Both the position numbers and the translations under genes were made by a program. Shown here piece by piece: positions 895 through 35,835 of a stretch of 64,000 nt of DNA. Where the stretch lies: NCBI GenBank assembly GCA_030220185.1, contig JASPKZ010001231.1:124001-188000 (forward strand), given 5' to 3'. Below the pieces are notes generated by a model. It made no database searches. It had not been told where the DNA came from and saw only the letters and a program-made list of their open reading frames with translations. The first letter of the stretch is position 1. The number at the start of each line of letters is the position of its first letter. Source of the DNA: Diploptera punctata (Eukaryota > Arthropoda > Insecta > Blattodea > Blaberidae).

Positions 895-1133
895 CTCTCA
901 ACGCCTGGCCTCCAAGGGTACGACCATATCGTCAATACACAAACGACAACCTGTGGGCTGCACTCATGGCAGTGAAGTGTGGTGGAAGTGTGTATCGAGC
1001 ATCCAAAGAGCATGGTATACCTCGTAAAACACTGCGCAACTGGATGAAACGTTGGAATATTAAGAGCCAGTTTGCTGCACCTGTTAGAAAAGCAGAGGCA
1101 GATAAATCTTATAAAGCTAGTATCAACTTTTAA
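895..1133 (+). CDS. Alternative 3' exon 1 encoding a psq helix-turn-helix domain
   Basis: Probable terminal coding exon of a sequence-specific nuclear DNA-binding protein. A pyrimidine-rich tract ending in AG (880-894) is a good 3' splice site. The open frame runs on from it to a TAA at 1131-1133, about 79 residues. The acceptor falls after the first base of a codon. Bases 936-1055 encode a pipsqueak-type HTH (starting YTNDNLWAALMAVKCGG, with GIPRKTLRNW as the recognition helix region). The sequence before it (RVRPYR) is basic. An in-frame ATG at 864 lies upstream of the acceptor and is not a credible start. Family knowledge: psq domains usually end BTB proteins in insects; the BTB part would be outside this window. 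The matching phase at 26835 and 35483 suggests all three belong to one gene. The domain call is strong; the gene identity is inference. Confidence 0.82.
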
Positions 1134-1479
1134 TATATTTTGTTTGACAAGATTTTCCTCTTATCATATTAGCACTAATTAATCTTTTTGTTGTACTGAT
1201 TATACTGGTCAACAATGAATTTTCACCAAATGTATGAATTATGTTCTGAGGTAGAAATCATCATGCTGATTTGTGGTTTCATTTTTGTTCTATCATACAT
1301 AGTTTTCAAATTTTTCCAAATAGATTGAAAGTAATTTTATTGATGCTAGCACTGTTAACCTATGAGAGGAAGATTACGACATCCCTGCGTGCAGCACGTC
1401 TTTCCAAAATAATCTTATTTCCAGCATATCCTGCAATTTTGAAGGAAATAGGGCATTTAGTTTGAACTTTTATAGGGAA

Positions 1480-2140
1480 AACTATAGGAACTTTTATAGA
1501 AAAACCACACTTCACTTATAAAACAAACAGAAGAAAACAAAATTCAAGAAATTCACTTACCATCCATTGAAGCACAACAAATTAAAAAAAAAAGTTTAAC
1601 ATAAGATTGGCACTGAAAAATTAATACAGCCTCAATGGGATAATTAAAAACCAACAAAAATGACAAAATTGAAGAAAAAACAAATTGGGAATATATCAGA
1701 TCAAATGCAGAGATTGTGACAATTTATGTAGGGAAAAAAAAAAATTGAAAACCAGGGTGAAAGAACATCTTAGAAATGTCAAAAATGGTGAAGTGGTAAA
1801 GTCAGCAGTAGCTGCTCATCCTGGTCTGAAAAATATCTAATTGATATAAAAGCTAGTTTAATTAAACAAATAGAAAACCAAAAGAGCTCACAGTTTAAAA
1901 AAAAAAATCCACATTAAAAAAAACAAGATATAAAAACTTGAAATTCCCACTGAATTTGATTTAATTCAGAGATTCATCGGTCCACCAACATAAGGAGTAA
2001 GAAGCAGTTCTGAATGACATAACATTGGTCGAGATATTACTGAAGATGAAACCACCAGGTTTTGAAACTGGTATAATTAAAAGACTGGATATGAGGTGAG
2101 GTATAAAGAATTTGAATTTAAATCTTGAGACACATTTAAC
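1480..2140 (+). pseudogene. Decayed 3' end of a Penelope-like element (GIY-YIG region)
   Basis: Conceptual translation in several frames matches the better-preserved PLE copies at 24.8-25.5 kb piece by piece: the NKND-KIE linker, a Y-VGK remnant of the YIGKT motif, then a SEKYLIDIKASLIKQIE-type tail. The GIY-YIG endonuclease cuts the target during PLE retrotransposition. There are many frameshifts and expanded A runs, so it is long dead. It ends with ATGAGGTGAG at 2091-2100, the same terminal signature as the other PLE copies here. It lies just downstream of psq exon 1 and contributes nothing to it. Confidence 0.6.
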
Positions 2141-2861
2141 CCATTTCATCCCCTTCAAAACATCCACCTCAGTCATATTTTGATTGTAGTATCATACACT
2201 TATTTCCAGTGCAAAACATATGATATTAGTGTACAAAAACTATGGTGTTGTGGGAATCATCTAAATCAAGTACAAGTGCATGTAACTTGTGCTAGTTGGG
2301 TATGCCTATTCAGTAATCACATTTTATTTATTAGGGGACTTTTCCCTTATGAGACCTGTATCTTTTACCAACAATGATGTCACAGGAAGTGGCCTTCAAC
2401 CATTTCCTAAAAGTACATTTATTTACATAAATTTGAGTGGGGCTAGTATTAATAGGCTTTATTTTGTTGCAGATTAGGCCTAAGTCACCTATAATGCCCT
2501 GAAAATATCTTAATCACCCATGTAACTTTTGCTACGGTATGTATGTGGCTCATACACTTCAAAATCTCAACTGTGCACAATCGCTCCGCAACATAAGAAA
2601 TTGTACCAATTTTACTTTGGCTGTCCACTTTAGTGATAAAGATAAAGGCTCGGCATCACATGTTAGATTGTTTCGACAGGATTGCAGGTTTGGTTGCAAA
2701 AGAAGAAAAAGTCTATGCCTTTTGCAATTCTAATGATTTGGCAGAAACTGAAAAACCACTGTTATGACTGCTATTTCTACTGTGTAAATATTAAGAAGTT
2801 CTGAGCAAAAACAAACATAAAATTGTGTTTTTATTATTCATTTCATACATCTCAATGATGG

Positions 2862-2932
2862 ATAGCCAAAGGTCCTGGGTTCAAGCCACAGTCTGAACTT
2901 ATAATTTTTCTCTTCAAATATGATAAAATTCA
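2862..2932 (+). repeat. 3' part of a tRNA-derived SINE head
   Basis: The segment gccaaaggtcctgggttcaa followed by cagtctgaact and a ttttctcttcaaat tail is the T-arm, acceptor end and start of the body of the SINE family seen more fully at 26636. The 5' half is missing or diverged. It sits directly before the relic coding region at 2940. Confidence 0.5.
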
Positions 2933-2939
2933 GATATTG

Positions 2940-4175
2940 AATCTGCAATGAGACCCATCCTTAATGAGATGCAGTTACTACCAATTCCCTGTCCTCCTGA
3001 AAGTGAAATAGAAATTTTTGAAGAAATGTGGTGTAGTAAGGATAGTGATTGTGAAGAATTAAAACATGATTCTGACACTGAATTCATTCCTGAGATGTTA
3101 AGTTTTGACCACAGAAATTAACACAATCGGAATTAAATGATCTCATTAGAGACTTGTCTTGTCACTCTCAAAAGACAAAGCTGAACTTCTATCCTTCAGA
3201 CTTAAATAAAAAAAGTCCTCTGGATAACAAAGTGTGCCATTACAGAAAACTAACTACCTCATTGGAAAAATTGTTTTCTATAGATGAGCCATTGATATTC
3301 AATCATGATGTTAATGGCATCTTTGAGGAACTAAAACATCAATTTGTTGCATCGGATTGGAGGCTATTTATACTTAAAGCCTTCTATTCCAATTGCTCAC
3401 TCAGTCCATTTAAAAGAAAGTAACAAAAATATGAATGTAATTCTAGAAGCAATTCAATAAGTCCTCACCAGTGGAATGTCTATGGCGATTTAAGTCATTG
3501 GCATGTTGATGGGCATTCAGGGAGATTTCACAAAATTCTGATGCTTTATATGTCTATGAGATAGCTGAAAAAACAGACAGACCCACATGAAAGTAAAGTG
3601 ACGACATATAGAAGAGCGTACAACCCTGGACAAGAAAAGGTTCAACATATCCCATTTGTTGATCCGAAGAAATTTCTTCATCTACTTCACATAAAACTCG
3701 ATCTGGCTAAAACCTTTCTAAAAGTTCTTGAAAGTGAACTTTGAAGGAATTCCCTTCTAAGTGAAAAATTTTGTAATTTATCTGCCAATAAAATTAAAGA
3801 GCTTTTAAAAGGACCACAAATAATTATTACAGATGAAAACTTAAATGAAACTGAACTGAGAGCTTAGAAAAGCCTTAGATGGCTCTGCATGAGCAAAGTT
3901 TCCTGATTACAAACAAGACATTCTGGATGCATGCAGGGTGATGGATCTCATGTGTCATTTAAACTCCATTTCTTGCATTCACATTTAGATATTTTCCTGG
4001 CTAATCTTGGTGATGTAAGAGACAAGATAAGTGAAAGGTTTCATCAGGACATTAAGTACATGAAACACGTTACCAGAGCTTCTTGATTAAGTCCATGATG
4101 GTGGACTATTGTTGGATGTTGTGCCATGTTGCTATAGAAAAAGTGCATAAAAGGTTATCTTCTGCTAAGCATTTC
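2940..4175 (+). pseudogene. Relic of a multicopy, uncharacterised arthropod protein family
   Basis: Joined over several frameshifts and stops, the plus strand spells a recognisable order of blocks: ELNDLIRDL (about 3135), SDWRLFI (about 3351), PIAHSVHLKE (about 3390), HLLHIKLDLAKTFLKVLESE (about 3680), a GPQI block (about 3810), LHFLHSHLD (3963-3989) and ERFHQDIKYM (about 4033). I know this block order from a repetitive, still uncharacterised protein family with many copies in arthropod genomes, probably carried by a transposon. I cannot name its superfamily. The longest open stretch (3154-3423) is one fragment of it. It is not a host gene as it stands. Confidence 0.55.
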
Positions 4176-4199
4176 AAGCTTCCAGTTCTTTCATTCAAT

Positions 4200-6340
4200 T
4201 AAGTGAGTGTATTTAAATGTTATTTTGAGTATTGTTATTGTTTATATGAATGTACGTACCGTTTTAAAAGGAATAAGTTCGAAAATATTTCTGCAGGAAA
4301 GAAATTTACTTGCATTTTCATAAATTTTTTCTTTTGTGCATAATTTGAAATCTGTATGTAATGATGGAAAACTGAATATATTTCTGTTATCAGCATCAAA
4401 AGTAAGTCTAAAAAAATTGAATTTTATTTCTGGCCATTAAAAATAATTTTTATTTTGTTGACCAGTGTTATATTTCTTAATATTACTTTGTTTTTAAGTA
4501 TCAGAAATCTAAATTTAATTCTATTTCTATTGAAAATAAAAAGTCAATATAATGTAGATTTTTTTCATTAACATGATTTCAAATGTTAAATGTTTATTAT
4601 TGGATTGGGATGCTAAGTGCATAAAAAATATTCATGGCAACATGAATGTTCTAACTTAATTGTATTTTACCATTGCACAAAATAAAAATACTATTCATAG
4701 GAATATAAATGTTCTAGCTATTTTCTAACTTAATTGTATTTCATCATCATCATCTGGAAAAAAAGTTTACAATGCATTATGAAAATGTTTAATTTGCAAT
4801 GTCTTTAATCTCTGTGGTGCATTTCATGCCAAAAACATTGTAAGTCAGAATTTTTGGAAAGCAAGAATGTCAAGGGCTTCATTGCCAGATGCAAGGCATT
4901 AAAAAATGGACAAACCTTTAATCAAATATAAAAAGCATTGAAGGAACAAGCGTGCAACAAGAATGAAGGATTTTTTGTATCTAGTCGTGAGATTTTTAGT
5001 ATCACCTTATGGTTCGTTTTTAAAATTCTCATTCATGCAGAGCAATTTTATATTCTTGTAACATAAATAACTGATAAGAGGTAACTTTGCAGTGCCACTT
5101 AGTTTTCTTTACTAATCATTGAGAAATGAAATACTATGTCCTAGAATTTTCAAATTTTGCTGTTTTTTTAATAATTTAATTACTGGAGTTATGTAACCTC
5201 CCTATAAATTATACAATTATTTTGACATTGAAATTTGAAAGAACAAAGTTTTAATTAATTTTGTTTTTAATTTTTATTAGATACATTTTATGAAATATTT
5301 AACATATAACAATTAAAATCTTTATTATTGGCTGTGCATTTCTATTGTTGTGTAATCGTGACTTTTCTGAAATTTAATGATGCTGTGAAATGACAATGGC
5401 TCGTGGTAATGTAATTCCATCTTGTCATTTTTCTTATGACATCAGTTTGGTCAGCCTCAGGACTTGAAACCTGACCTCCCGAATATAATTCTCACATATG
5501 AACCAGTTTTTCTTGGTTTTATCTAATTTAATTTCATTATATATAAATTTCCTGAAGAAGATAATTAATTTTTGGTGACATTTAGTCATTTAGATTACCT
5601 TTGTTGAATAACATAGTTCTAGTATTTTAACATTAAAATTAAGTTTAGTTTTAATCTAGAAATTTTTTTTTATTTTGATAAAAGTAATCTCCATTTTTGT
5701 TTAAAATTTATGTCATATATGAACGACATAATTCAGCGTTATTCATATTTTTTACACTTAAGAAACATTGAAAACCAAAGTTTGTCAATTTTGGTAGCTC
5801 TAACATTTGCCAAAGAATTCTGTGGTTGCAGAATAAAATCGGACCCAGTTCAGTAGATTTTAAACTTAAAAAAATGTTTTAAAAATTATGTTCTAAATAA
5901 TTAAAAAATAATTATTAGCAGTTGAAGCATTTATAAATAATTCCCTCCATCCACACTGTACTGGGAAGATAGCATCCATGTTATAATTTGGACAGAGACC
6001 TGCTTAATTTGTGTCTGTGTTTTATAACAGGTGATTCTTTAATATAATTTATGTCAGATTTCAATGTAAAATAAAATACAAATAGAAGTTAAAATAATTG
6101 CAGTTAAAATTTTTATTATTTTAATTGAAATCATTTATTTGGTCAATTCTTAAGACATCTTTTCTACTTCCAGAGATTGAATCGGTAATTTATATTTCAC
6201 ATCATATTTTGTTTTCTCACCTGGAACATGTCGATTTCTGGCTGAGAATAGCAAAATTGTCTGCCTGAACATGTTTCACATGAGAAAAAATATTTTTCTA
6301 TTCAGGATTGTTTCTGTTATTTACACATACCCTCAACCAA
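4200..6340. other. AT-rich noncoding DNA
   Basis: No supportable gene or complete element is visible. Base runs, short hairpins and weak tRNA-like patches (for example near 5440-5510) are present. It is probably intronic or intergenic. Confidence 0.5.
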
Positions 6341-6600
6341 AATATACAATTTTTTTCTTCCACACTTCCCGATCTTGTGTGTCTGCTTCTGTCATATTTC
6401 TCTTCTTCATGTTGTCTTGAATTCCCTTTATTCATGTTGGCTTTGGTCTATCACGTTTCCTTTTTCCCTGAGGTATCCATTTCAATACTTCTTTGTTTGT
6501 TTTCGGTGTCCCTTCTTCTCAGTATATGTCCATACCATCTTAGTTGGATTACTTCAATCTCTTGCACAATTCCTACATTTATAGAAAAAATATAAGGTCA
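6340..6600 (-). pseudogene. LINE reverse-transcriptase C-terminal fragment
   Basis: On the minus strand a frame reads EVIQLRWYGHILRRRDTEN followed by remnants of a W-GKR-RGRPK block. This is the usual end of the RT-associated C-terminal domain in several LINE clades. Stops interrupt it. The plus-strand reading frames over the same bases are shadows of it. Only the 3' end is present, as expected of a 5'-truncated insertion. Confidence 0.55.
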
Positions 6601-9490
6601 TTATAAATTCCGATTCAGTCTCTTTAATAAATTACCTCATGTGTATCTTATCAATGAGAATAAAACAGACCTTTTCTACTTACTAATATATATGTTGCTA
6701 TTTCTTACAAAATGTAATGAAATTACTTTATAATAATCAAAACCATAAAAACATACTCTTCCAAGCAAAGAAAAAAGTAGCTATTACAGTGACAATTATG
6801 AAAATTTTCCAAATGAAGGCTGAATATTTAGAAACTTGTCAGTGCTAGTCAAGACTTTATTATATAAGCTTAACTGGCTATAATAGTAGTGTTAAAGTCT
6901 CATTTAAAGTCTTCTTGAATAAGAAGCTGCAGGATAGCTTCTAGATTGAAGGTTCATGGCCTTGGGCAAGTGGGATTATATAAGAGAGGGAAAAATTTCT
7001 ATTTAAAGTGTGATGCCCAGGTAGCAGTCTAATTTTTCTCTTCAAATAAGCTTTTATTCGCTTATTTATTCTCTCTCATAACTGTAAGATTGTCATGAAC
7101 TTTTGCACTTTCAACTTAGTTGTGTTTCACTCATGTACATCATAACTTTATGAAAATCGCATATATTTTAAATGTAATATTTTGTTCATTAAATTAATTT
7201 GTTACTGATCATATATAATTGTTATAGCATAATTTTAACGATTCTAAATTAGGAATGGAATATATTTCTTTTTCATTGTAAATATACAATCCTTGACTTA
7301 CATACTCTTGTTACTTGGCATGAAAACAACTCATATGATTAGAAAAGTTAAATTGAGTGTCAAATTACATTTACAAAACTATATTTGCAGACTGATGTAA
7401 AGTGACAGTTACAATAAAATTGTCTTTTGATAGTCCTAAGAGGTATGTGGCACATGTAAATGTTGGAATGATTTTGAATTAAAATGTCTAGTTTCTCTAG
7501 TATAAGCATTACTTATCTCATTATTTAAATTTTTGTCAATTCTTCTTAAATGTTGTCTGTATATCAATTATTTTAAGTGCAGACAATAACTGGATATATA
7601 TGAAGGGTTAGGGCAATAACATGATAAGCCACATACTGTTTTTTCTGAGATATAAGTATTTTAATGTTTCAAAAAATTATAAATACTAATTAGGCAGTAT
7701 TATTAATAACATTGTGTGTCTACGTGTTTTAACTCATCACTGGCCACACTTAAAAATATTTTATGGATATTTCAATACATTTATTTGCTATCATTGTAAT
7801 AAATGACATTTCTTAACAGAATGTGGCTTATCAAGTTACTGCCCTAAGCCCATCATATATATATATTTGAAAATTTAAACATAATCACTGTAATGATTTC
7901 AAGGATTGTAAAATTATGAAGTGTATTGTAAATTCCATCTAACATTTCATCTGGTTTTAAGATAAATAGGACCTTTTGTGGTTTTACAATGAAAAGGCTT
8001 TATTAAGAAGTTTTAAAAAATAATTTAATCTTGGTTTTGATATATTTTACGTGTTGGTCCTAGTTTTGTGATAAAAATATTTTTATAGGGAATGTTTCAG
8101 TTTCCACAAATATATTTTCAAACGAACATTTTATTTCTACACAATGGATTTTTTGTTTCAAACTGAAATTTGAAAGCAGATATGTATCTTATTTCAGCAT
8201 TTTAATAATGAAAACTGAAATACTTTAATAACTGTAATTAGGAAGATATTGGATAGACTTTGCATCATATTATTTTTCAAAGTATTGGAAACTTAAATTT
8301 GTAAATACACTACATTTTTACATAAAGATAAAAATCTGTCTTTTTTAACAATTTTTAAAATTGTGTGTCCAATTTTGTATTATTAAGCTCAACATAGACA
8401 TTTGTATATTTAAACATAAGCTTCATAGCTATATTTCTAAAAATTAGTAAATGATATACGGAAGGACACAATTCAAAACAATGTTTAGCTTTAAGAAAGT
8501 ATCCAAAGAAATGATTGTTCCTTACAATTTATAATTAATATTATTCATATTTTAACACTAACTACCATAAATTGGGGATACATGAGGCATATTTTTAATT
8601 AATTTCTTTTATGGTATCAGCATCTTTCTGTGGATTGCAAATGCTGAATTTTTTTCTTGCAATATTTTCTGCAAATTGAAAAGCACAGAACCGAGTAATT
8701 TGTTCAGATGATAAATTTTTAAACATGCTTTTGAAAGGTTTAGATTCAAGTTCTGGAGCCAGTCAACCTGCAGAGATTTCTTCCTAATTTCGCTCAATCA
8801 AGGAAAATGTTGAATTGGAATTTCATTATTAGAATTAATTTCATTGTAAACATAATTTATATATTTCAGTTAAATCAGTAGGTTTCCACAGAAATACATT
8901 AAAAACTCAGTGACCAAAATACTGTTTACTAGTTACAGCTAAAGATCCCAGATGCAATATGATTTTAGATATAAAAGTAATAAAGAAATGAATAACTCAG
9001 GAAAGTTCTGCCAAGATAGAACATGTGACTGAATTTACTCTACTGTTCCATTATACCCAGTCTATGGTACATTATATAATTATAGGAAAAAATACATACT
9101 GGTAATCTTATATGAAGTTGTTTCACTGTTATTTTTAACAGAACTTGTGATTACATTAATTGAATAAGCATATACAGTTTTCTTAGAGAAGATCCTTTTT
9201 TAAGTTACCAAATGTTTTAAGTATTATTTTTAAACATTAAAGTGTATATTCAAGTAAAGTCTGATTTCATAATTATAGAGTGTGCCTCTGATTTTATATC
9301 TTATTTAATTATTTGAAAAAAATGTACAGATCTACGTGACTGAAATAAATGTATCTCAGATTATTTCTGTTGTATTAATTTCTCTAAACACATTTCTCTC
9401 CACACCTTTACTGTAATAATCCCAACTATACTTTATTCTACTATTTTGTATCATAAAATACAATCTATATCATGATCATTTGGATATTAA
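6600..9490. other. AT-rich noncoding DNA with a worn SINE-like patch
   Basis: No gene is supported. Near 6890-7050 there is a decayed SINE-related stretch (the aagtcttcttgaataagaag motif, then gcccaggtagcag and a tttttctcttcaaata tail). The rest is unremarkable AT-rich sequence, likely intron. Confidence 0.45.
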
Positions 9491-10080: not shown

Positions 10081-10155
10081 TGATTATTGTTCCCAGATAC
10101 CATTACTTTAATTTATATTGTAATATTAAGATTTGGGAATTAAATTATGTAACTA

Positions 10156-11265: not shown

Positions 11266-11269
11266 ACGT

Positions 11270-12570: not shown

Positions 12571-12574
12571 TTTC

Positions 12575-16116: not shown

Positions 16117-16330
16117 AAGGTAAAGGAAGGATTTATGCTTGGATGGGAAGGAAGCCTGGATTAGCTCAATGGTTAGAGCATCAGCACGGAAAGCTGAAGG
16201 TTCGGGGTTCGATTCCCGGTTCAGGCATAAATTTTTCTCTTTACCATTTGATTACAATAATTTAGTAGTGTACTTTAATATACTTATTTCAATCATAGTA
16301 ACAGCTTTAGCTTCTTAATATTAATTTAAT
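16117..16330 (+). repeat. tRNA-derived SINE, family A, copy 1
   Basis: The tRNA-like head spans about 16150-16227: acceptor gcctgga/ttcaggc, D-arm gctcaatggttagagc, anticodon stem tcagc/gctga with loop acggaaa, T-arm ggttcgattcc. A body atttttctctttaccatttg and a 3' region repeated almost exactly at 46185-46262 follow. Loop position 33 is C instead of T, so it is not a functional tRNA gene. Confidence 0.8.
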
Positions 16331-17082: not shown

Positions 17083-18373
17083 CGAGGGTCATACTGAAGG
17101 TCATGAGCAACATTTTTTTAAACAATCATAATATTTATTTTAGACAAACCAAGTACACCATGTTAATCTACAGACCTTTGTGCTACTTTTCAACATAGTC
17201 TCCATTTCTTTGCACACATTTTGTCCAGCATTCTACAAGCTTGAAAATTCCCATATGATAGAAGTCCGTTCCAGCTGCTCAAAGACACTGACGCACTGCT
17301 TTCCGAATATCCTCCAGCGTCTCATAGCGTTGGCCTCTCATCTGCTCCTTCACAGAACAGAAAAGATGGTAGTCGGAGGGTGCCAAATCGAGACTATAGG
17401 GAGGATGTGGAAGAGTTTCCCACCCAAATGTCCTGATCTTCTCCACAGTGGCATGAGCAGTGTGAGGACGCGCGTTATCGTGTTGCAGAATGATCTTCCT
17501 TCCAGGGCGTTTGTCGTGCAATGCACGACAGAGCTTCACAAGTGTCTGGATACAGCGGGCAGCATTTATGGTTTGTCCAGGTTCAAGAAATTCAACAGAA
17601 TGCAACCTTGCGCATCCCAGAAGACGCTGCCCATAACTTTCCCAACAGATTGCACTGTCTTTGCTTTTTTCTTTGATGGCGAATTCAAGTGGTGCCATTC
17701 CATACTCTGGCGTTTTGTTTCAGGCTCGTAGCGATGAAATCAGCTTTCGTCACCTGTCACAATACTCGTCAAAAAATCATCACCTTCATTTTGAAATCTC
17801 TGAAGAAGATTATGGGTGATGGTTCTTCTCTGAAGTTTGTGGTCTTCACTCAATAAACGTGAAACCCAACGGGCACTAACTTTTCGGTAACCTAAGCTGT
17901 GAATCATTTCTTGCACTGCACTGTGTCCTACTGCAAGTTTTGTAGCGATTTCATTCACTGTGATACGCCTGTCGTCTCTAATGAGCGCATCAACTCTTTC
18001 CTTGTTGCAATCCGTGGAGGCAGAGCGTGGGCGACCGCTACGAGGCTCATCTTTAAAATGTTTCACCCATCTCCTAACACTGCTGGCACCCATGCAGGCA
18101 TCTCCGTAAGCACATTGAAGTCTTTGGTGAATATCAACAGCAGATTGTTCCTCTTTAACAAGGAATTCAATGACAGCGCGCTGTCGAAACGAAACATTGA
18201 TGTCTGCCATTTTGGAAACACTGCGTGTGGTCACATGATAGAAGCCATGACGCCACAAAACGGCAATGTTGTGGTATAAAGTCTGTAGATTACGATCCTG
18301 CAGTTGTTTTTGTTACATTGTTGAAATTTGAATTTTAACAATGGGTTGCTCACGACTTTCAGTATGACCCTCG
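17083..18373 (-). mobile_element. mariner transposon (1.29 kb)
   Basis: Near-perfect terminal inverted repeats start cgagggtcatactgaa at both ends and are followed by TA on each side (17081-17082, 18374-18375), the mariner target duplication. The length of 1291 bp is standard for a full mariner. The single gene lies on the minus strand (see 17190-18258). It is inserted inside a LINE fragment, so it is the youngest of the three nested insertions here. Confidence 0.92.
17190..18258 (-). pseudogene. mariner transposase, broken
   Basis: Cut-and-paste DDD transposase. The N-terminal part (18258 down to 17740, 172 residues) has the paired HTH region, including the linker RSGRPRSAS, and ends at VTGDES, where GDE carries the first catalytic Asp. 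The next codon, normally Trp in this family, is TGA. The C-terminal part resumes in another frame (17698 to 17279) with LQHDNARPHTA (second Asp) and YSLDLAPSDYHLF (third Asp), 34 residues apart, the D34D spacing of true mariners. More frameshifts follow after 17279. At least one nonsense change and one frameshift make it inactive. Confidence 0.9.
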
Positions 18374-22004: not shown

Positions 22005-22140
22005 AGTAAGGTAAAGGAAGGATTTCTGCTTGGATGGGAATGAAGCCTGGATTAGCTCAGTGGTCTGAGCATTAGCACGGAAAGCTAAAGGTTCGGGGTT
22101 CGATTCCCGGTTCAGGCAAAAATGTTTCTCTTTACCATTG
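22005..22140 (+). repeat. tRNA-derived SINE, family A, copy 2
   Basis: Same lead (gtaaggtaaaggaagga) and tRNA-like head as 16117, truncated after tctctttaccat. The A-box carries gctcagtggtctgagc. Confidence 0.75.
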
Positions 22141-24059: not shown

Positions 24060-24772
24060 TGACATTGTCAATGCTGCGTCACGTTCACAACTGACGTCCA
24101 ACGGCCTTCTATCCTGCAGACTGACCTCTGCGCCATCTGGTGGCCGACCGAAGAATTTCCAAATCAGTCCTCTTTCTTTATAACCGGGTATTTCAAATTC
24201 ATAGTTGTATTTTCATTCTTGCATATGTAAATTTTTTCCCAAATTGTGAGTTCCTTCGGTTTTTCCAATTGTTTAAGTAATTTTGTTTTGGTTTCTATTC
24301 TATGTTTTTCTGACCAGGCATGTGCAGCTATTGCAGATTTTTTGGTTTCTCCATTTTAACATTTCTGAGGTGTTCTTTTTAATCTTGTATTTAGATTCCT
24401 TTTTGTTTTTCCTATGTATATCTTTTCACAATCTTTACAATTAATTTGATAAATTCCCGATTTTTTGCAGTCTTCAATCTTTTCATTTTTGTTGGTTTTT
24501 ATTAAATTACCTAAGCTGTAATCATTTTTTGGTGCTAATTTAATGCTGAATTTGTTGAAAATTTTTTGAAACTTGTCAAATACGAAAGGATGGTATGTGA
24601 ACTTCTTGAATTTTTTGCCTATATTTTTATCTGTCTGAAGAGTACTTTCATTGATGACTTTTTGTTCTTTGAATTTATTTATTTTCTTGTGTATCATTTT
24701 CTTTTGAAAACCATTATCCTTAGCAATTTGTATGATGTGTTCTTTCTCTTTATTGTAATTTTCTTTGCTCAT
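24060..24772 (-). pseudogene. PLE C-terminal region with GIY-YIG endonuclease, left arm
   Basis: The main frame (24772 to 24356) reads the linker after the RT, IAKDNGFQKKMIHKKINKF, then KSGIYQINCKDC and YIGKTKRNLNTRLK, the GIY-YIG nuclease motif that nicks target DNA. A frameshift near 24380 breaks the rest, which continues in other frames to about 24060. No RT domain precedes it. The first codon has no start context; it is only where the inverted junction falls. Confidence 0.75.
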
Positions 24773-24789
24773 GGGGACATGTCCCCATC

Positions 24790-25476
24790 ATACAAATTGC
24801 TAAGGATAATGGTTTTCAAAAGAAAATGATACACAAGAAAATAAATAAATTTAAAGAACAAAAAGTCATCAATGAAAGTACTCTTCAGACAGATAAAAAT
24901 ATAGGCAAAAAATTCAAGAAGTTCACATACCATCCTTTCGTATTTGACAAGTTTCAAAAAATTTTCAACAAATTCAACATTAAATTAGCACCGAAAAATG
25001 ATTACAGCTTAGGTAATTTAATAAAAACCAACAAAAATGAAAAGATTGAAGACTGCAAAAAATCGGGAATTTTTCAAATTAATTGTAAAGATTGTGAAAA
25101 GATATACATAGGAAAAACAAAAAGGAATCTAAATACAAGATTAAAAGAACACCTCAGAAATGTTAAAAATGGAGAAACCGAAAAATCTGCAATAGCTGCA
25201 CATGCCTGGTCAGAAAAACATAGAATAGAAACCAAAACAAAATTACTTAAACAATTGGAAAAACAGAAGGAACTCACAATTTGGGAAAAAATTTACATAT
25301 GCAAGAATGAAAATACAACTATGAATTTTGAAATACCCTGTTATAAAGAAAGAGGACTGATTTGGAAATTCTTCGGTCGGCCACCAGATGGCGCGGAGGT
25401 CAGTCTGCAGGATAGAAGGCCGTTGGACGTCAGTTGTGAACGTGACGCAGCATTGACAATGTCACAAAATATGTGA
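24790..25476 (+). pseudogene. PLE C-terminal region with GIY-YIG endonuclease, right arm
   Basis: The longest PLE frame in the window (216 residues as open frame from 24826). It contains the linker, KSGIFQINCKDC, YIGKTKRNLNTRLKEHLRNV, EKSAIAAHAW and a tail ending in ERDAALTMSQNM. The GIY-YIG pair is GIF-YIG here, while the mirror arm keeps GIY. The frame is intact through the nuclease domain but has no RT, so it is a truncated C-terminal piece of the element's single protein. Its close similarity to the left arm suggests recent joint origin. Confidence 0.78.
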
Positions 25477-26125: not shown

Positions 26126-26218
26126 CAATAAAAATCCTCAGGCCAATTTTAACGTAGGCCTAAATATTAACTGCATTCAATGTTTTTATTGTTAATTTAA
26201 TATTTCTCACTGAAGGAC

Positions 26219-26740
26219 AAATTCTATTTGAAGAGAAAAATTATACACTCAGACTGGGCTTTGACCCCAGGATCTTTGGCTTTCTATGTCTATGTTCTAC
26301 TGCTGAGCTATCTGAGCACTCCAATCTAAATGCAAATTTTTCTTTTATACATTATTAATTCCTGAGCACCTAATGCTATGAGCCTTTACTCGATTATGCA
26401 AATGGTCGCTTCTTATTTAAGAAGACATTTATTGGAAATTTGAACATTTACTTTATAAATTATAAAGTATAAAAATATTGAAAGAAGCCCCACTGGCTTT
26501 ATAAAGTAGTGTTTAAATTCTAAATAAATGTCTTCTTAAATAAGAAACTTAAAATTTGCATAATTGAGCAAAGGCTTGTAGCATTCAGCGCTCGGGAATC
26601 AACAATGTATAAGAGAAAAATTTGCATTTTTATGGGTGTGCTCAGATAGCTCAGCAGTAGAGCATTGGCCTAGAAAGCCAAAGGTCCTGGGTTCAAACTC
26701 CGGTCTGAGCTTATAATTTTTCTCTTCAAATATTAATTAA
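26219..26740. repeat. Inverted pair of tRNA-SINEs just upstream of psq exon 2
   Basis: The left half (26225-26440) is a minus-strand SINE; the right half (26520-26740) is the same SINE on the plus strand. They point away from each other with their tails meeting near 26480. The right tRNA-like head (26636-26711) has acceptor gctcaga/tctgagc paired perfectly, anticodon stem ttggc/gccaa and loop ctagaaa. Transcribed, the whole would fold into a hairpin with arms of about 220 bp. It ends about 95 bp before the acceptor of psq exon 2. Confidence 0.7.
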
Positions 26741-26834
26741 TTGCATTGCTTAATTGTAAAATAAAAAGTAATATGATTTATTAAAATTGGGAAATATGGA
26801 TAATCATCAAATAATGTGTAATTGTTTCTTTCAG

Positions 26835-27199
26835 TATTGGAACTTCCCAACTCCATGGAAATACTTCCTTCTACTACATATGCATATCAAGAAGTTACAA
26901 AATTTGAAGATTTACAAGATTTTTCTGCTCCAGAAAAACATGTAGATTTACAATCAACACTTCTGAAGAGACCTGGAAAAGTTCGTTCGTTTGGAAGAGG
27001 AAACAGATGTTCAAGAACAGAAGAACTATTACAGTTAGCTGCAGAACAAGTGCTAGGTGGTATATCACTTAGACGTGTAGGAAAAGCATATAACATACCT
27101 CGTACAACATTACATGATTATATGATGCGAAAAGGACTCTTTTCTCAGCGTTCTTGGAAACGCAGATTGTTAAAGATACAAAAACAAAATGCTGGTTGA
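26835..27199 (+). CDS. Alternative 3' exon 2 encoding a psq helix-turn-helix domain
   Basis: The acceptor is attgtttctttcag (26821-26834). The frame then stays open to a TGA at 27197-27199, about 121 residues, again entering after the first base of a codon. The first 50 residues are acidic and unstructured-looking (ELPNSMEILPSTTYAYQEV). A basic stretch follows (RPGKVRSFGRGNRCSR), then the psq domain at 27014-27136 (RTEELLQLAAEQVLGGISLR and YNIPRTTLHDYM), then a short basic C-terminus (WKRRLLKIQKQ). The IPRTTL and GGISLRR blocks are canonical for psq domains. The frame has no in-frame ATG near its start that would be needed if it were a separate gene. Predicted nuclear DNA-binding; partner exons are outside the window. 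Confidence 0.85.
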
Positions 27200-27790: not shown

Positions 27791-27799
27791 CACGTTTCT

Positions 27800-28315: not shown

Positions 28316-28814
28316 AATATATAAATGTTTCTGTGTGCCTATCATCAAGAAACATATTATTTTCATTGTATTGATTGGACTCTTATGTTGTAAGCAGTAA
28401 TATGAGTATGTCCTCTTCTTTTTTTTAATAGCTCTTTAAATTATGTTTACATTATTATTTTGTCTTGTTTAAAGAATGTATTGTCAAATGGTATTTAAAT
28501 AAATGGTACTGTTCAGTTTTATTTTCCATTAAATATACTTAAGTGTAATATTAATTTGTTGTAAATGTAACAATGCTTTGATATTGTATTGGCCCTAGAA
28601 GCACATACATAAATGCACTTATCAAAACAAAGTTCATAGATTCAACATGTGACCAAGATGTGTATTTAGTAATCATTAAAATAATTATTTTGCTCATAGA
28701 GTGGAATTGTTTATGTTTATATATATTCTTGTGCTCTACAATTGTTTTCTAGGAGTTAAAGGAACTTAATTTATAACATTTCATAAGCTTAATAAAATAA
28801 TATAATTTGTCTAC

Positions 28815-28990
28815 TACTCCATGCTGCAACAGGCCTAGAAGGTCCTTGGCTTACCAGCTGATTGCTGGCCTCACATCAATATGTGTTAATCAAAGAGGTG
28901 GGCAATTTTCTAGCAAGTGTATGTGTGACATGTGGTCAGCATATAGGGTTCCCCAGCCATTATAACTGGTTTTCTCAACTTGGTTATTTG
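28815..28990 (-). repeat. SINE body fragment
   Basis: Matches the body of the SINE at 36232-36536 in the same orientation (aggcctagaaggtccttggc, then cacatcaatatgtgttaatc and a tgacatgtggtcagca block), without the tRNA-like head. Confidence 0.6.
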
Positions 28991-28999
28991 TCTTTTTAT

Positions 29000-29685
29000 G
29001 TAAAATTGTACCAATTCCACTTTGTACTTTAAAATATCTGTGGTTCTTCGAAATTTGCATCCAATTGTTAGTTATTTAATATAATTAAATTCTTACTTTT
29101 GAGCATAAGAAATTTATTTTAATATATCATAAAAGTTTCCTCTATCATATTATTTGTTTTCCTTTGTTTCTATATTGAAAATAAAAAAAATACGTAATTT
29201 TGAGGTCCTGTTTATTCAAAAGAAATCTTCACTATCATTCCCTTAATGTATCCTCCTTTTTCTCAAGAGAAATAAATAAAAAAATCATGAAAGTAAAATG
29301 ATTGCTATTATCATTTCTAAAGGTAAACTGCTGAGTTTAACCTATTAGTTTCTGGTTTTATATTATAAATGGACATTGTTCTTTGAATCTTTATCAAAAG
29401 TAATATGACCAGTGATTTCCAAATCATGATAAATTCACAAAGTGACAAGTGAATTTATCTAGATGTTTTGGAAATCAAGAGTGGCATTTGTTAGAACTAT
29501 TTAATGAATAAAATTAAGCTGTTTACTCAAAAATCATTATTTAAATACAGTTACCAGTATTTTAAAATATTTATATATTTAATGTAAACAGTGATGTTTG
29601 AAAACAAATCAGTATTGTGTGGTTATGTTTAATTTGTTTATCCAGTGCAACTTGATCATATAATATTATTATTTGCAGTAACATT
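29000..29685. other. AT-rich noncoding DNA
   Basis: Nothing supportable. Confidence 0.4.
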
Positions 29686-29689
29686 CCAC

Positions 29690-29965
29690 ATGGTTTTCAG
29701 ACTGTATCTTTTCTTTCTAGTCTTCTCCATTTCTTTTCCTCATATTAACACTCCAGTCTTTCAATATGTTGGCAATGTCTTTTGTTGGTGTTTCTGATGT
29801 TAATACACAATTTTGTTGTTGACAAAATCTTTTGAACTGGCTCCAGATATATTTCCTATTACTGTGAGTGTTTTGAGGCTTAGATTGCTAGATTAATTTG
29901 TCTATATCTTCATTTGAAGTGCAGCCAAATCTTGGGTCTGCCATTTTGTACATTCAAACCTGGTG
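29690..29965 (-). pseudogene. Possible Crypton-like recombinase N-terminal relic
   Basis: The minus strand reads MADPRFGCTSNEDIDKLI then, past a stop, NRKYIWSQFKRFCQQQNCV and TPTKDIANILKDWSVNMRKR-NGED. The spacing and content (an N-terminal helix, a W-x-x-F-x-x-F element, then a VRKK-G-Y-like stretch) resemble the N-terminal core-binding domain shared by Crypton-type tyrosine recombinases and the host proteins derived from them. No catalytic domain follows. The assignment is tentative. Confidence 0.35.
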
Positions 29966-29969
29966 GCTT

Positions 29970-31635
29970 TGTTGGAGAGTCAGTCACTGCAAAATAATGC
30001 TCTGGCATGTTCAGAATATTAAAAAAGAGGAGCTTTCTTTATCACAAAAGCATGAGGTAGTTAAGAGAATTCGGTAAAGAGTGAATCACGACTGTCATTG
30101 GTTGTATAATAAAATTCATTGAAACGTGATTGGTCATTAACTCCCATTTGGGGCATGAGTTAAATAGTCACAGTTAAGCTTCATGCACACATTCATGATA
30201 AAGTCTTCAGTACGATAATACATCTTGCAGATATAATATTGAAAGTGAAATGATTGTGTGAAATTAATAATTTAATATCTTGTATCTTGTGATGTTTACA
30301 TTTTTTATTATTCAATTAATTTAATGGAAGATTAATATTCTGAAGATAAATGGAATAAACATTTCATTGTTTTATTTATGGATGGAATTCAGATCTTTGG
30401 TCTTCTGACAGCTGTAACTGGAGTCTAGAGGAGATGAACAATGTTTCTTTCATACATGGAGTGATGGTGGAGGAAGCACATCTGTGTCAGAATTTGTAAT
30501 TCAGATGTGGTAACTTTTTGTTACGAATAGTAAAAATAGATAGGATCATTAACTGTATTGTAACAGAGATTTCACTAATTAGCTGATTATTAATTTTTAC
30601 ATTAAAAATGAAAACCAGACACAATAAACAAAATCTGAACTAAAATAATGTGACTGTATTTTGGAGAACTTGCAATATTTTATTCTATTTTATGGGAAAG
30701 TTCAAGTTTGTGTTCAGGAGGGTATGGGATGATCTTGTAATGATATGTTGATTTCAAGGTTGAATATGTTGCTATGACTACACAGATCTTTAATTTTGAA
30801 ATGCTGAACTGTTAGAAGTTAAAATATCTATTAATTTCACTATAAAATGATGAACTATATGTATGACTTCTATAAAAATCTATGAATAGTACCATCTTGT
30901 TCAGATAGGTTATGTCAAATATTTTAAGTAATCAATTGAGTTGGTGTTTACTTGATGAAAATCCATATTCATTAATTAAATAAAAATAAAACTTAGTTTT
31001 ATTTGTTTATATCTTAATAAATATGAAAATCAAATAAAACTAAGTTTTATTTTTATTTAATTAATAGATATTTTAAGAATTTAAAGATTACATTAATGCA
31101 TATTTTTTAATATTGTAATTTATTTATTACAATTTTTCTAATTGTGTAATATTTTTAAATTGTAAAAATATAATTTATAATTCTATATTTTGAAAATTGT
31201 ATGTAGGCTATATATAATTTGATGTAAGTAGTAACAAATACAGAGAATTTTAAAATTACGGCATAACATAGTATTTTATTAATGTACATTATGTTATTTA
31301 AAAAAATTACCAATTTATTGTATTCTTCAGTCATGCTATAAATGGGTGAAAATTCCCTGAAACCATTACTGTTGCATCAAACTTTTTATTATTTTTCAGA
31401 TTCTCTTATTATGAAACCTGTTTTCTGCTTTTAACCAATTTTCTTTTTTTTTTTATATATATAATTTATTACATCCTGACAGTACAAGTGCTCATTAGAG
31501 AAAGCTAATGTAAAAAATTGAGATGTATAGATAAATATTTTGAAAGCTTAAATTGCACATTTTTATGTGAAAATTATTTCTGAGTTATGAAATGGGATTT
31601 GTTGTTTGTATTAAATATAGATATGTAATAAAATC
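29970..31635. other. AT-rich noncoding DNA with one perfect hairpin
   Basis: The only clear structure is a perfect 34-bp inverted repeat, arms 30971-31004 and 31032-31065, with a 27-base loop. No gene is supported. Confidence 0.5.
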
Positions 31636-31639
31636 AATT

Positions 31640-32110
31640 CAATACTTACTTACTTACTCACTGGCACTATCGAACCTGCAGGTTCATGACCACATGGACA
31701 TAAGCTCTCCATACATCCCTATCCTGAGCTAATGCTTTCCAATCATTCCCTGTATAATCTACTTCCCTCAAATCATAGATAATGTTATTCTCCCACCTCA
31801 TTTTTGGTCTACCAACTGGGCATTTTCCCTCTGGTTTTCCTACAAGAAGCCTCCATGCATGTCTTTCATTCCCCATACGTGCCACATGTTCTACCCATCG
31901 CAATCTACGAGACTTAACTGTTCTTATTATATCTGGCTTCTTATAAAGACCATGTAGCTCATTGTTATGTAGTCATCTCCATTCACCTGTATGTTCATCT
32001 CTCTTTGATCCAAAAATTTTCCTAAATACTTTATTCTCAAATACTTGTAATCTCCTTTCCTCCCTTAAAGTAAGAGTCCCATGTTTCGCATCCATATAAT
32101 GTAACAACAT
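31640..32110 (-). mobile_element. LINE family A, 3' fragment
   Basis: The minus strand encodes RMGNERHAWRLLVGKPEGK, then CPVGRPKMRWENNI and DWKALAQDRDVWRAYVHVVM. The 3' end is an ACTT/TAAG repeat (31645-31662). The block ends abruptly at about 32107, which is the 5' truncation. A frameshift lies near 31965. Confidence 0.78.
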
Positions 32111-32213
32111 CAATTTAATAACATAAAAAAAATAGGAGGATAATGTAATTCTGCAGTTTTACATTATTTTCTGCAATTGTCCAATTTTGCGCTCAGTAGT
32201 AGCTTTTGATATA

Positions 32214-33535
32214 CAGGGTGGACCGCTCGAATGGACCTAATTTCAATTGCTTGTTACTGGCAAACGGTTGAAGATAGAAACTTAAAACAACGTTCATATT
32301 ACAGAAAAACTCACCAAGTTTTGATATCCAGATCACCACATCTCTATATGAGCCGCAGCAGTCACTGTGACGATATCAAAGCGATGAACAATTTCTTGCC
32401 AAGTACGTTGGAGTATGTCTTCTGGAATGTTCTCAATAGCCTCTATGATGCGCTCACGAAGATCACGAAGGTCTTTGACTGGGGTGGTGTAAACTTTATC
32501 TTTGACATAGCCCCAGAGAAAGAAATCCAGTGGTGTTAAATCGGGAGATCTCGGGGGCCACGCGATTGGTCCTCCCCTACCAATCCAACGGCCAGGGAAA
32601 ATGTTGTCCAAAGTCGTACGAACTTCATTGGACCAGTGGGGAGGAGCACATCTTGCTGGAAAACGATGTTAGGCTGCAGTTGTTCAATTTGTGGAAAGAA
32701 GAACTGCTCCAGCATGTCAAGATATGTGGTACCACGAACAGTTTTCTCGGCGAAGAAAAACGGTCCAATGACCTTATTATGTGACAAACTGCACCAAACA
32801 TTCATCTTCGGACTATCACGAACATGCTCTTGAATAGCGTGAGGATTCTCCGATCCCCAGATCCGCACATTATGCCGGTTTACCTTGCCGGACAAATGGA
32901 AAGTGGCTTCGTCCGAGAAGAAAATCTGGTCATGAAGTCAGGATCAGCGCCGAGACGGTCCAGCATCGTATTGGCGAATTCCACTCGTTCGGCATGTCAT
33001 TCGGCTCCAGACGTTGCACTAACTGCACTTTATATGCGTGCAGTTTGAGGCGTTTGTGGACAATCCGTTGTAATGTCGATTTTGGTATTTGAAGTTCCCG
33101 CGAAGCTCTTCTTAATGACTTCCGGGGGCTTCGCTCAAATGCGGCTTGAACATTTGCTACCATTTCATCGGATGCTCTGCGACCACCACCATGCTTCTTC
33201 AACACAGATCCTGTAGCAATAATGTATCACGCCACTTCTTTATGCTTCTAGCAGTTGGAGCATCACGGTTAAACACACGCCGGAACTCCCTTTGAACTCT
33301 AATGATTGATTTAAACTCCGCATACCACAAAACAGCTTGCGCTTTCATCTGCGGAGTCGCCATTTTCACAAACAATTAAATCTAAGAACGAGAAACGTAT
33401 CTTTGTGCCATCTACCGACAGGATTCGAAACTTGGTGAGTTTTTCTGTACTATGAACGTTGTTTTAAGTTTCTATCTTCAACCGTTTGCCAGTAACAAGC
33501 AATTGAAATTAGGTCCATTCGAGCGGTCCACCCTG
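32214..33535 (-). mobile_element. IS630-Tc1-mariner transposon with 108-bp inverted repeats
   Basis: Flanked by TA (32212-32213, 33536-33537). The ends cagggtggaccgctcgaatg are the start of 108-bp terminal inverted repeats (32214-32321 and 33428-33535) that differ at only one or two positions by eye. The length is 1322 bp, a complete element in size. It carries one broken transposase gene on the minus strand. The near-identical ends suggest a fairly recent insertion despite the broken gene. Confidence 0.92.
32333..33363 (-). pseudogene. IS630-Tc1 transposase with DD41D spacing, broken
   Basis: Starts at an ATG at 33363 (MATPQMKAQAVLWYAEFKS). The N-terminal helix-turn-helix region of the type labelled DUF4817 in insect annotations spans about 33363-33200, then HGGGRRASDEMVANVQAAFE and KSTLQRIVHKRLKLHAYKVQ. 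The catalytic core is in two further frames: VWCSLSHNKVIGPFFFAEKT, FQQD (second Asp, about 32655), then PRSPDLTPLDFFLWGYVKDK (third Asp). Counting through the shift, 41 residues separate the second and third Asp. At least two or three indels break the frame (near 33215, 32935 and 32650). Confidence 0.85.
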
Positions 33536-33539
33536 TATA

Positions 33540-33945
33540 GTATTTCATATACATATATATAATGATATGTAGCTGATACATTTATTGCTCCTTTATTATT
33601 TTATTTTTTCCTTTTTTTTACTTATCTCCGAGGAATATTAAATATTGTTTCTTTGATTTAGCTCACTGTACTGGCATATACCAAAATGCTTGGATTTGGA
33701 GACTTTGCTGAAAAGGTATTGCACCCTTCAAATATATGAAGGATAATAATTGTAAATAATTATGAGCACTGTAACTTAACTTCGTAAAAATATATATTAA
33801 TTGTGAATACATTATCATGTGAATTCAGACTTAGTAAATTACGGTATCGTATGGAATAAATCAACATTTCTAACATAAACTTTTAAATTTGAATAAAAAA
33901 TATGTTTAGATGTTATATTTTAAATTAAATATATCTTGAAGGAAC
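33540..33945. other. AT-rich DNA with a possible 54-nt exon
   Basis: Mostly featureless. Bases 33662-33715 lie between a fair acceptor (ttgtttctttgatttag) and a weak donor (aaaag|gtattg) and are open in frame 1 (LTVLAYTKMLGFGDFAEK). This is only a candidate. Confidence 0.2.
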
Positions 33946-33949
33946 TACG

Positions 33950-34165
33950 TTTAGAACCAGTCATTGAATACATACATAGATACCAGAACAACTGGATGAA
34001 TCATTTGCAATGAATGAGTTCAAGGCCATGCTTCGTTATTGTCCAACAGGGAAGAGATCTCTGGGCCACCCAAGGAAATGCTGGATACAAAATTCATCAG
34101 TGAGACATAACATGGCTATAGGCCTAGACTTAGTTGGATGACGAAGAAGAAGATTTTAAATTAAC
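33950..34165 (+). pseudogene. LINE C-terminal fragment
   Basis: The plus strand reads EYIHRYQNNWMNHLQ followed, after a stop and a shift, by GKRSLGHPRKCWIQN. This is the usual end of a LINE pol protein (YRNNW-HL, then R-S-GRP-K-W). Confidence 0.6.
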
Positions 34166-34194
34166 ACATTCCAAAATTGGACATAGTTTTATTT

Positions 34195-34300
34195 TAGAAA
34201 GAAAAATTAACGCTTGGACCAGGATTCGAACCACGGATCTCTGACTCTGCATATCAGTATGATACCGATTGCACCATCCGAACTCTGATACAGCGTCAAC
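34195..34300 (-). repeat. tRNA-derived SINE head
   Basis: On the minus strand box B-like gtggttcgaatcctggtcca and a following ttaatttttctttct tail are clear; box A is degenerate. Confidence 0.5.
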
Positions 34301-34349
34301 ATTTATTTCCTCCTTGAAAGAGAATCCTGGTTCGAGTGTTAATTTTTCT

Positions 34350-35390
34350 TTCTAAAATAGAAAAATATGTGCCTAAATCAGGATTTGAACCCAATGTCTC
34401 TGGTTCTGTACACCAGTGTTCTACCATCTGAACTATTCATCATTATCTGTGGTCCTACAGCCCTTTTAGTTTAGCCTTGACCTCCTTAAGAATTGCCACC
34501 CAATCCTCTCTTCCAAAGCTCTCTGTCTCCATCTCTTAATTCCTGTCTTCACAAAGTCATCCTGGACATCATTTAACCACCGTAATATGGGTCTTCCAAC
34601 TCTTCCTTTACCACTTGGTTTGGTATCTAATTATATTTTAGGAATTCTATTATTGTCCACCTTGATTATGTGGCCCAGCCATTCCAACCATATGATTCTG
34701 AACTATTAGGCATACAATTTATTCGTTGATTTTTCTCTCTACTAATATGCACCAGGTAGCAGGGAATTTCCTTCCATGAATGCCATCTAGTAAAATCTTA
34801 TTAAGAAGACTTTTAAATGGGAATTAACACCACATTTCAGCCAGTGAAGCTTAAATTTGTTGTTTAATATTAAATTTATCACTTCTCACCAAATGACAAA
34901 TTAAATTTGAAGAGAAAAATGTATGCCTAAATCAGGATTTGAACCCAATACCTCAGGTTCTATACACCATTGCTCTACCATTTGAGCTATTAGGCATCCA
35001 ATTTATTCCTAGAGTTTTCTCTATACTATTATAATTCCTGCATGTCAGGTAGCAGTGAACTTTGTTCCACCAACACCATCTAGCGGCTTCTTAAATAAGA
35101 ATACTTTTAAATGGGAATCAACACCACATTTATAGGCAGTGAAACTTAAATTTGACGAGAAAAATATGCACTTAAATCAGGATTTGAACCCAATCACTAT
35201 GGTTCTGTACACCAGTATAGAGAAAAATCTACAAATAAATTGGATGCCTAATAGTTCAGATGGTAGAGCACTCATGTACAGAGCAGAGAGATTGAATTTT
35301 AAACCTAATTTAGGCATATATTTTTTTCTACAAATTTAATTTGTCATTCAATGAGAAGTGATAAATTTAATATTAAACAACATGAACTGT
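34350..35390. repeat. Tandem and inverted SINE units upstream of psq exon 3
   Basis: A unit made of a minus-strand tRNA-like head (aggatttgaacccaat, then ctctaccat-tgagctatt) plus a body ending aacaccacattt-cagtgaa recurs in direct order at about 34355, 34905 and 35150 (the last cut short). A plus-strand copy (about 35225-35390) then faces it. The first unit is interrupted by a LINE fragment (34438-34696). The period is about 250-280 bp once that insert is removed. The array ends about 90 bp before psq exon 3. Confidence 0.65.
34438..34696 (-). mobile_element. Short LINE 3' fragment with 11-bp TSD
   Basis: Flanked by tctgaactatt at 34427-34437 and 34697-34707. The minus strand encodes a LINE pol tail (EMETESFGREDWVAILKEVK) and ends with a TGA/ATG-rich 3' end. 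It is inserted in a SINE head of the array. Confidence 0.78.
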
Positions 35391-35482
35391 ATTTCTTCAG
35401 CATTATAAGTTTGATTTGTTGCTAGTGTTTCTTATACTTGCTTGAATTTCAGTGAAACTAAAGTATTATTATTTTATTTCAG

Positions 35483-35835
35483 ACATGAATGCTGCTGCAG
35501 CATTAGCTCTGCAGAATGTGATGTGTGTATTATCACCAAATGACAGAAATAAATGGAAAGAAGGCAGTGGTACACCTACAAGGATTCGTCGATCTGAAGC
35601 AGAACTCACCAAGGCAGCTGAATGTGTCCAAAAGGGCATGACTTTTCAAAATGTCTCTGACATCTTCAATATCCCTATTTCGACTATTCGATTCTACATG
35701 GCAAGAAGAGGCATACTACCACAGCGACGCAGGGGTCGGACTGCAAGTACACAACAACCAAATTCTGGTTCATCTCAATATATGATGATGCATTACAAAC
35801 TGGATGATATTAACAAAAAACAGTCTACACCGTGA
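35483..35835 (+). CDS. Alternative 3' exon 3 encoding a psq helix-turn-helix domain
   Basis: The acceptor is tattattttatttcag (35467-35482). The frame enters after the first base of a codon, as in the other two psq exons, and stays open to TGA at 35833-35835, about 117 residues. The first part is Ala-rich (MNAAAALALQNVM). The psq domain spans 35593-35712 (SEAELTKAAECVQKGMTFQN and FNIPISTIRFYMARRG). A strongly basic tail (LPQRRRGR) could serve as a nuclear localisation signal. The final codons overlap accGTGAGT (35830-35838), a good splice-donor match, so the exon could also be internal with a donor at 35832. The domain call is firm; membership of the same gene as the exons at 895 and 26835 is inferred from strand, domain and phase. 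Confidence 0.84.

Follow-up and report, generated by a model that had tools for sequence, protein, structure and literature searches.

The isoforms of many TTK-type BTB genes typically differ in their DNA-binding domain (PMC11426971; this and the other articles below are cited from the parts of their text that were available). The closest described systems are two Drosophila loci, lola, with about 20 alternative 3′ ends, and mod(mdg4), with at least 30. C2H2 zinc fingers are found in 17 of 20 lola isoforms, mod(mdg4) isoforms mostly carry FLYWCH, both loci are trans-spliced, and TTK-type BTB domains, with their N-terminal motif FxLRWN, form hexamers and mix (PMC11426971). The psq helix-turn-helix (HTH) is also known together with BTB (PMC11426971): Ribbon has a PSQ motif in all three isoforms (PMC5127561), and bab proteins combine psq and AT-hook in one protein (PMC8121916). 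We analyzed a stretch of 64,000 nucleotides from the cockroach Diploptera punctata (hereafter the window), which corresponds to positions 124001-188000 of contig JASPKZ010001231.1 (C1228) in an assembly of 3.12 Gb. Judging from sequence comparison, three exons of the window, E1, E2, and E3, are very probably alternative 3′ terminal exons of one insect BTB transcription factor gene, probably of the TTK type.

The design is that of lola and mod(mdg4), with single psq HTH modules as the swapped parts. As in lola, one BTB part is combined with many alternative DNA-binding ends, and as in mod(mdg4), a constant BTB part is followed by swapped C-terminal modules. However, C2H2 zinc fingers predominate among the lola ends and FLYWCH among the mod(mdg4) modules, whereas the cockroach exons each encode a single psq HTH or, in one case, an AT-hook-type end. 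The lola locus is known to be trans-spliced, and the same is reported for mod(mdg4). The Drosophila proteins pipsqueak, bric-a-brac, and ribbon have BTB and psq, as does the cockroach gene, but in the available texts psq is a fixed part of them, and no description of alternative psq exons was found there for these genes. Nor was any description found in the literature on BTB-psq proteins and alternative exons, a search that left most subscription papers outside its scope; none appears in the available parts of PMC11426971, PMC3503823, PMC4033408, PMC8121916, and PMC5127561. The silkworm survey among these lists two BTB-HTH genes, and the words “isoform” and “psq” are absent from the available part of its main text (PMC4033408). 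By constant part and tails, the same gene is represented by the Cryptotermes “protein bric-a-brac 2 isoform X5/X7/X8/X9,” the Zootermopsis “CP190-like,” and the Periplaneta “bric-a-brac 2-like” proteins, which are known as gene models only and bear inconsistent names. Since the NCBI gene models already list several isoforms under such borrowed names (bric-a-brac 2, CP190-like, jim lovell, and broad-complex in the databases), the gene is annotated and apparently not described.

According to the proposed design, three exons would encode a shared constant part, consisting of the BTB domain and an acidic linker, and a single donor would leave G as codon base 1. At least six exons would be alternative splicing partners of this donor, namely AT-hook-type, psqA, psqB, E1, E2, and E3, each of which would end in its own stop (the psqB frame is one base off in the assembly). 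Every mRNA would then encode the same BTB multimerization part with a different C-terminal module, mostly a single psq HTH, and DNA recognition would presumably differ between the isoforms. This reading is carried by the anatomy of the exons, the shared predicted donor, the common strand, order, and phase, and the orthologous isoforms among the gene models of relatives.

The three exons had been proposed in an earlier sequence-only reading, and their coordinates and plus strand proved exact when the window was re-read (Table 1). The acceptor sequences and the phase confirmed that each lies behind an AG acceptor and that its first base is the second of a codon, and each frame was indeed open to its own stop. 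With G as codon base 1, E1 begins with A-LNAWPPRVRPYRQY..., E2 with V-LELPNSMEIL..., and E3 with D-MNAAAALALQN.... A loose scan of the window for an acceptor followed by an open phase-1 frame of at least 75 codons gave 10 cases on the plus strand and 5 on the minus strand; half of the plus-strand cases (5/10) fell in E1–E3, with a second fitting AG in both E2 and E3. Since this combination is not rare in the window, it says little alone, and our reading is not built on it. The poly(A) signal ATTAAA was located 319–611 bases beyond each of the three stops, to which we give no weight because ATTAAA is frequent in AT-rich DNA.

Table 1. Positions of the predicted exons, their acceptors and psq domains, and neighboring repeat-like features (slashes mark exon borders; window positions count from its first base).
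Feature	Sequence	Position	Strand	Remarks
Constant exon 1 (BTB)	C2677	628138-628803		666 nucleotides from ATG; donor AAG/GTAAGA
Constant exon 2	C2677	661903-662000		donor CAA/GTAAGT
Constant exon 3 (linker)	C1228	3708-3819	same as E1–E3	112 nucleotides; donor CTGCAG/GTAATG; leaves codon base 1 = G
AT-hook-type variable exon	C1228	76432-76919	same as E1–E3	phase 1; about 48 kb left of E1
psqA variable exon	C1228	93655-93869	same as E1–E3	phase 1; about 31 kb left of E1
psqB variable exon	C1228	109188-about 109461	same as E1–E3	phase 1; about 16 kb left of E1
E1, putative alternative 3′ terminal coding exon	window	895..1133	+	C1228:124895-125133; phase 1; 79 residues including split codon; stop 1131-1133
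E2, putative alternative 3′ terminal coding exon	window	26835..27199	+	C1228:150835-151199; phase 1; 121 residues including split codon; open to stop
E3, putative alternative 3′ terminal coding exon	window	35483..35835	+	C1228:159483-159835; phase 1; 117 residues including split codon; open to stop
AG acceptor of E1	window	893..894	+	TTTTTCCTCTTGCAG; TTGCAG/CTCTCA
AG acceptor of E2	window	26833..26834	+	TTGTTTCTTTCAG; TTTCAG/TATTGG
AG acceptor of E3	window	35481..35482	+	TTATTTTATTTCAG; TTTCAG/ACATGA
HTH_psq domain of E1	window	921..1067	+	Pfam, psq profile, tree alignment
HTH_psq domain of E2	window	26999..27145	+	Pfam, psq profile, AlphaFold2
HTH_psq domain of E3	window	35575..35721	+	Pfam, psq profile, tree alignment
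tRNA-like matches	window	16154-16227, 22045-22118, 26246-26317, 26640-26711		last ends 124 bases before E2
tRNA-like matches	window	34211-34995, 46093-46159, 50605-50677, 53376-53447		
Open frames, mariner-type-like	window	17279-18312, 32333-33226	-	second with HTH, psq profile 13.2 bits
Repeated GIY-YIG-like and reverse-transcriptase-like open frames	window	24356-25476, 36863-37761, 55167-57377	both orientations	

The claim of one psq HTH per exon also held. Against a gathering score of 20.4 bits for Pfam HTH_psq (PF05225), E1 scored 27.6, E2 33.5, and E3 25.8 bits, the E1 value being slightly exceeded by its match to HTH_23 (29.1 bits). The psqA exon of the same genome reached 33.7 bits. Among the relatives described below, the E3 tail of P0011 was just below the cut-off (20.0 bits), and the psqB tail of P0071 gave no HTH_psq match in Pfam at E 0.01. 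For a psq hidden Markov model (HMM), 46 psq domains were taken from proteins of other species, and the window sequence was left out; on the window the HMM gave 91.2 bits for E1, 54.3 for E2, and 84.5 for E3, scores to be read with the fact that the training proteins had been retrieved using the window exons and are not an independent set. After E1–E3, the next-best match in the window scored 13.2 bits (33181-33041, minus strand), and the top score in 10 Markov sequences of window length was 10.2 bits. The psq content of E1–E3 is far beyond chance, and a reading of the exons as chance open frames was rejected. The AlphaFold2 model of E2 has the three-helix fold of HTH_psq, with a block mean predicted local distance difference test score of 90–93 in the HTH and low confidence in the N-terminal half of the exon. 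The solved structures closest to this model were mostly HTH DNA-binding domains, including that of LCoR (2cob), at low scores. A search of NCBIfam returned nothing.

The constant part was sought in the D. punctata genome with P0013, a Cryptotermes BTB isoform (BTB domain, Pfam 87.6 bits). The search recovered a BTB exon on another contig, C2677, a short linker match at C1228:3705-3818, and a psqB-like sequence and E1 on C1228; the remaining BTB loci were weaker matches than that of C2677. Exon mapping covered C1228:1-188000 and C2677:627000-679437. It revealed one constant BTB part, a shared donor, and six phase-compatible 3′ exons, psqB being off frame and the BTB exon lying on C2677; all six variable exons are entered in phase 1 and lie on the strand of constant exon 3, which ends ...AAAGCAACTGCAG at the shared donor. 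The AT-hook-type exon resembles the AT-hook tail of Cryptotermes. In the translation of constant exon 1, the TTK motif reads FCVKWN, a conservative departure from FxLRWN, and among the PDB sequence matches to the P0013 BTB domain, the CG6765 BTB (8rc6) ranks third. The D. punctata protein P0088 is an exact translation of constant exon 1 continued past its donor.

These results refined what had been predicted for the gene as a whole. That the exons belong to a single gene, whose BTB part lies beyond the left end of the window, is supported by the donor on the same contig, 121 kb upstream of E1, and by the isoforms of relatives. A donor leaving codon base 1 was predicted for the BTB exon and does exist, but it belongs to constant exon 3, which encodes the linker only; the BTB exon is upstream of the window as expected, yet two exons beyond the donor exon and on C2677. 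Likewise, E1–E3 belong to the array, but the array is larger than these three: another three variable exons, including two of the psq type, lie in the interval from the donor to the window.

From the donor of constant exon 3, the predicted introns would be 121,075 (E1), 147,015 (E2), and 155,663 bases (E3) long. Such distances, 121–156 kb from the donor to E1–E3, would suit a real array in which the constant part and some of the variable exons are transcribed apart and trans-spliced, and lola and mod(mdg4), the two trans-spliced loci, have the same design (PMC11426971). However, all six variable exons are on the strand of constant exon 3, with no sign of strand switches, so that cis splicing is simpler, and we consider trans-splicing unlikely. 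All variable exons would presumably be spliced in D. punctata, and in cis.

Of 4152 candidates in a pooled search with the E1–E3 tails, 66 proteins matched at E ≤ 0.001; 57 of the 66 contain a Pfam BTB domain, and the named species are insects. With the gene-specific part of the P0013 linker region as the query, 23 proteins among 146 candidates were obtained, which supplied the set of isoforms described below. E1 was 91% identical over 64 residues to the tail of the Cryptotermes P0013 and 89% identical to Zootermopsis P0014, and Schistocerca P0018 has the constant part with an E1 tail. E3 shared 84% over 89 residues with Zootermopsis P0006 and 61% over 132 with Gryllus longicercus P0011, which joins the constant part to its E3 tail at ...EKAAT/E. 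Among 13 isoforms compared, the one closest to E2 was the tail of Anabrus P0084 (27% over 111 residues, E 2.7e-12), in which the constant part is joined to an E2-like tail at ...DKAAT/V. Each of the junction residues, V, A, G, and E in the relatives' models and A, V, and D for E1, E2, and E3, fits a codon starting with G. Open frames that combine BTB with an E3-type end were also found on contigs of only 1.8–2.7 kb from the source “lgn” (P0022, P0027, P0039, and P0055); we take “lgn” to denote assembled sequencing runs, and if these are of RNA, the four would be spliced mRNAs.

The clearest picture of the array was provided by species with several isoforms. Residues 1-293 are identical in Cryptotermes P0013, P0070, and P0071, and the same in P0072 minus one skipped residue; past them, the tails are E1 (P0013), psqA (P0070), psqB (P0071), and AT-hook (P0072). 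Zootermopsis has the same four kinds of tail after 293 shared residues (E1 in P0014, psqA in P0074, psqB in P0073, and AT-hook in P0075), and the Periplaneta models, with 296 shared residues, end in psqA (P0076), psqB (P0078), AT-hook-type (P0079), and Cys-rich (P0077) tails. The Pfam AT-hook was matched by Cryptotermes P0072 alone, and barely (17.7 vs. 17.4), and was not matched by P0075 and P0079. In a fused model of Gryllus bimaculatus (P0004), psqB-, E1-, and E2-like psq domains are followed by the start of E3, the same order as in D. punctata.

These isoforms bear on a reading of E1–E3 as the ends of three different genes, or as solo psq genes, which share their phase by coincidence. Psq-like HTHs are very common in the genome (150/150 scored candidates were above the cut-off), and one strand and one phase for three exons would be a weak coincidence by itself. 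However, other insects have one and the same kind of BTB constant part fused to their E1 and E3 orthologues and to the closest relative of E2, and the predicted donor is present on C1228, which makes separate genes very improbable. That the psq exons are decaying pieces of transposases, in which psq-like HTHs do occur and to which the many transposon-like open frames of the window might point, can practically be dismissed, because the psq of E1 is identical to that of Cryptotermes P0013 (50 columns compared) and the psq of E3 to that of Zootermopsis P0006 (49 columns), and the whole genome yielded one match to E2 (1 of 16 candidates), in contrast to what a transposon family would give and to the abundant psq-like domains of this genome.

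An orthologue of bric-a-brac (bab1/bab2) was also considered as the identity of the gene and rejected, since psq and AT-hook occur in different Cryptotermes isoforms (P0070 vs. P0072); the NCBI name bric-a-brac 2 is thus probably misleading.

Relations among the psq modules were examined with a tree of 49 domains (50 columns) that represent a selection of the matches, and in this tree many forks are unresolved. The E3 class formed one group of 24 rows with a support of 99/96, spanning mayflies, a damselfly, a louse, thrips, bugs, a beetle, a lacewing, a wasp, moths, flies, a cricket, and a termite. In addition, psqA clustered with a bug domain (99/98), and the psqB domains of termites, Periplaneta, and a cricket were grouped (97/79). 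Pairwise identities among psqA, E1, E2, and E3 ranged from 7/44 to 18/48. The recognition-helix stretches differ: IPRKTLRNWMKRWN in E1, IPRTTLHDYMMRKG in E2, IPISTIRFYMARRG in E3, and VPMTTLHYRVKLKQ in psqA. The psqB helix of relatives is nearly that of E1, so psqB and E1 may read the same DNA.

Several observations weigh against the one-gene array. The position of E2 depends on 27% identity (E 3e-12) and on a weakly supported grouping with Anabrus and Gryllus (94/50, long branches), and E1 and its orthologues alone form no supported clade. Among the retrieved termite and Periplaneta models, no E2 or E3 tail was found except in Zootermopsis P0006 (E3), and in that model the agreement with the standard constant part stops at residue 222, a different linker leading on to E3. 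The constant part is divided between separate contigs, C2677 and C1228, which look adjacent, an adjacency that we infer: C2677 ends at 679437, 17 kb beyond constant exon 2, and constant exon 3 sits 3.7 kb into C1228. When aligned with their counterparts in relatives, constant exon 2 and psqB both lose the frame through a one-base loss in an A-run; two such losses, both in A-runs, suggest homopolymer consensus errors of the assembly, with decay as the less likely cause. The psqA acceptor, CACGTGAAG, is the poorest among the variable exons, and the AT-hook-type exon of D. punctata has no AT-hook match in Pfam.

With such an array of alternative psq exons, the interchangeable DNA readers of insect BTB genes would include the psq HTH in addition to zinc fingers and FLYWCH. 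BTB proteins with an E3-class psq domain range from those of mayflies to those of beetles and flies, which makes the gene a test case for the origin and divergence of alternative 3′ exon arrays. The isoforms would presumably mix via their BTB domains. More tentatively, with a chance that we put a little below even, an ancient BTB gene of winged insects may constitute an alternative-HTH code, perhaps reduced or lost in Drosophila: one BTB part would be spliced to four or five psq readers with different recognition helices, or to an AT-hook-type end, and, given the hexamers known for TTK-type BTB domains, the choice of 3′ exons could bring several of these readers together in one complex. If true, such a code would be the HTH equivalent of the lola and mod(mdg4) systems. 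Among the matches listed in the tail and linker searches and among 120 of the 124 matches of a further search, all with length-limited candidates, none was named as a Drosophila protein; Glossina, Bactrocera, Culicoides, and Condylostylus were present among the matches listed.

Two features of the relatives' models deserve mention. The alternative tail of P0077 (Periplaneta americana isoform X3) has a Cys-rich, zinc-ribbon-like pattern, which to us resembles the C-terminal zinc domain of piggyBac transposases; it had no Pfam match, tblastn of C1228:1-188000 likewise gave none at E 0.01, and a transposase domain captured as an alternative exon is possible. Models from a cricket, midge, thrips, and bug (P0004, P0012, P0015, P0017, and P0026) contain two or three array-type psq domains per protein. 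They are probably prediction artefacts, real multi-psq isoforms being the less likely alternative.

Repeat-like sequences also occur in the window around the exons (Table 1). Rfam gave eight tRNA-like matches and ARAGORN five, and three of all these matches were called tRNA-Ser with GGA or AGA anticodons; the matches are probably tRNA-derived short interspersed nuclear elements. The two minus-strand open frames at 17279-18312 and 32333-33226 look to us like fragments of mariner-type transposases, and the repeated GIY-YIG-like and reverse-transcriptase-like frames presumably resemble those of Penelope-like elements. Genome-wide, HTH_psq gave 5473 first-look candidates; all those scored exceeded the cut-off, many of them lay in long equal-scoring frames, and these abundant matches are probably transposase families.

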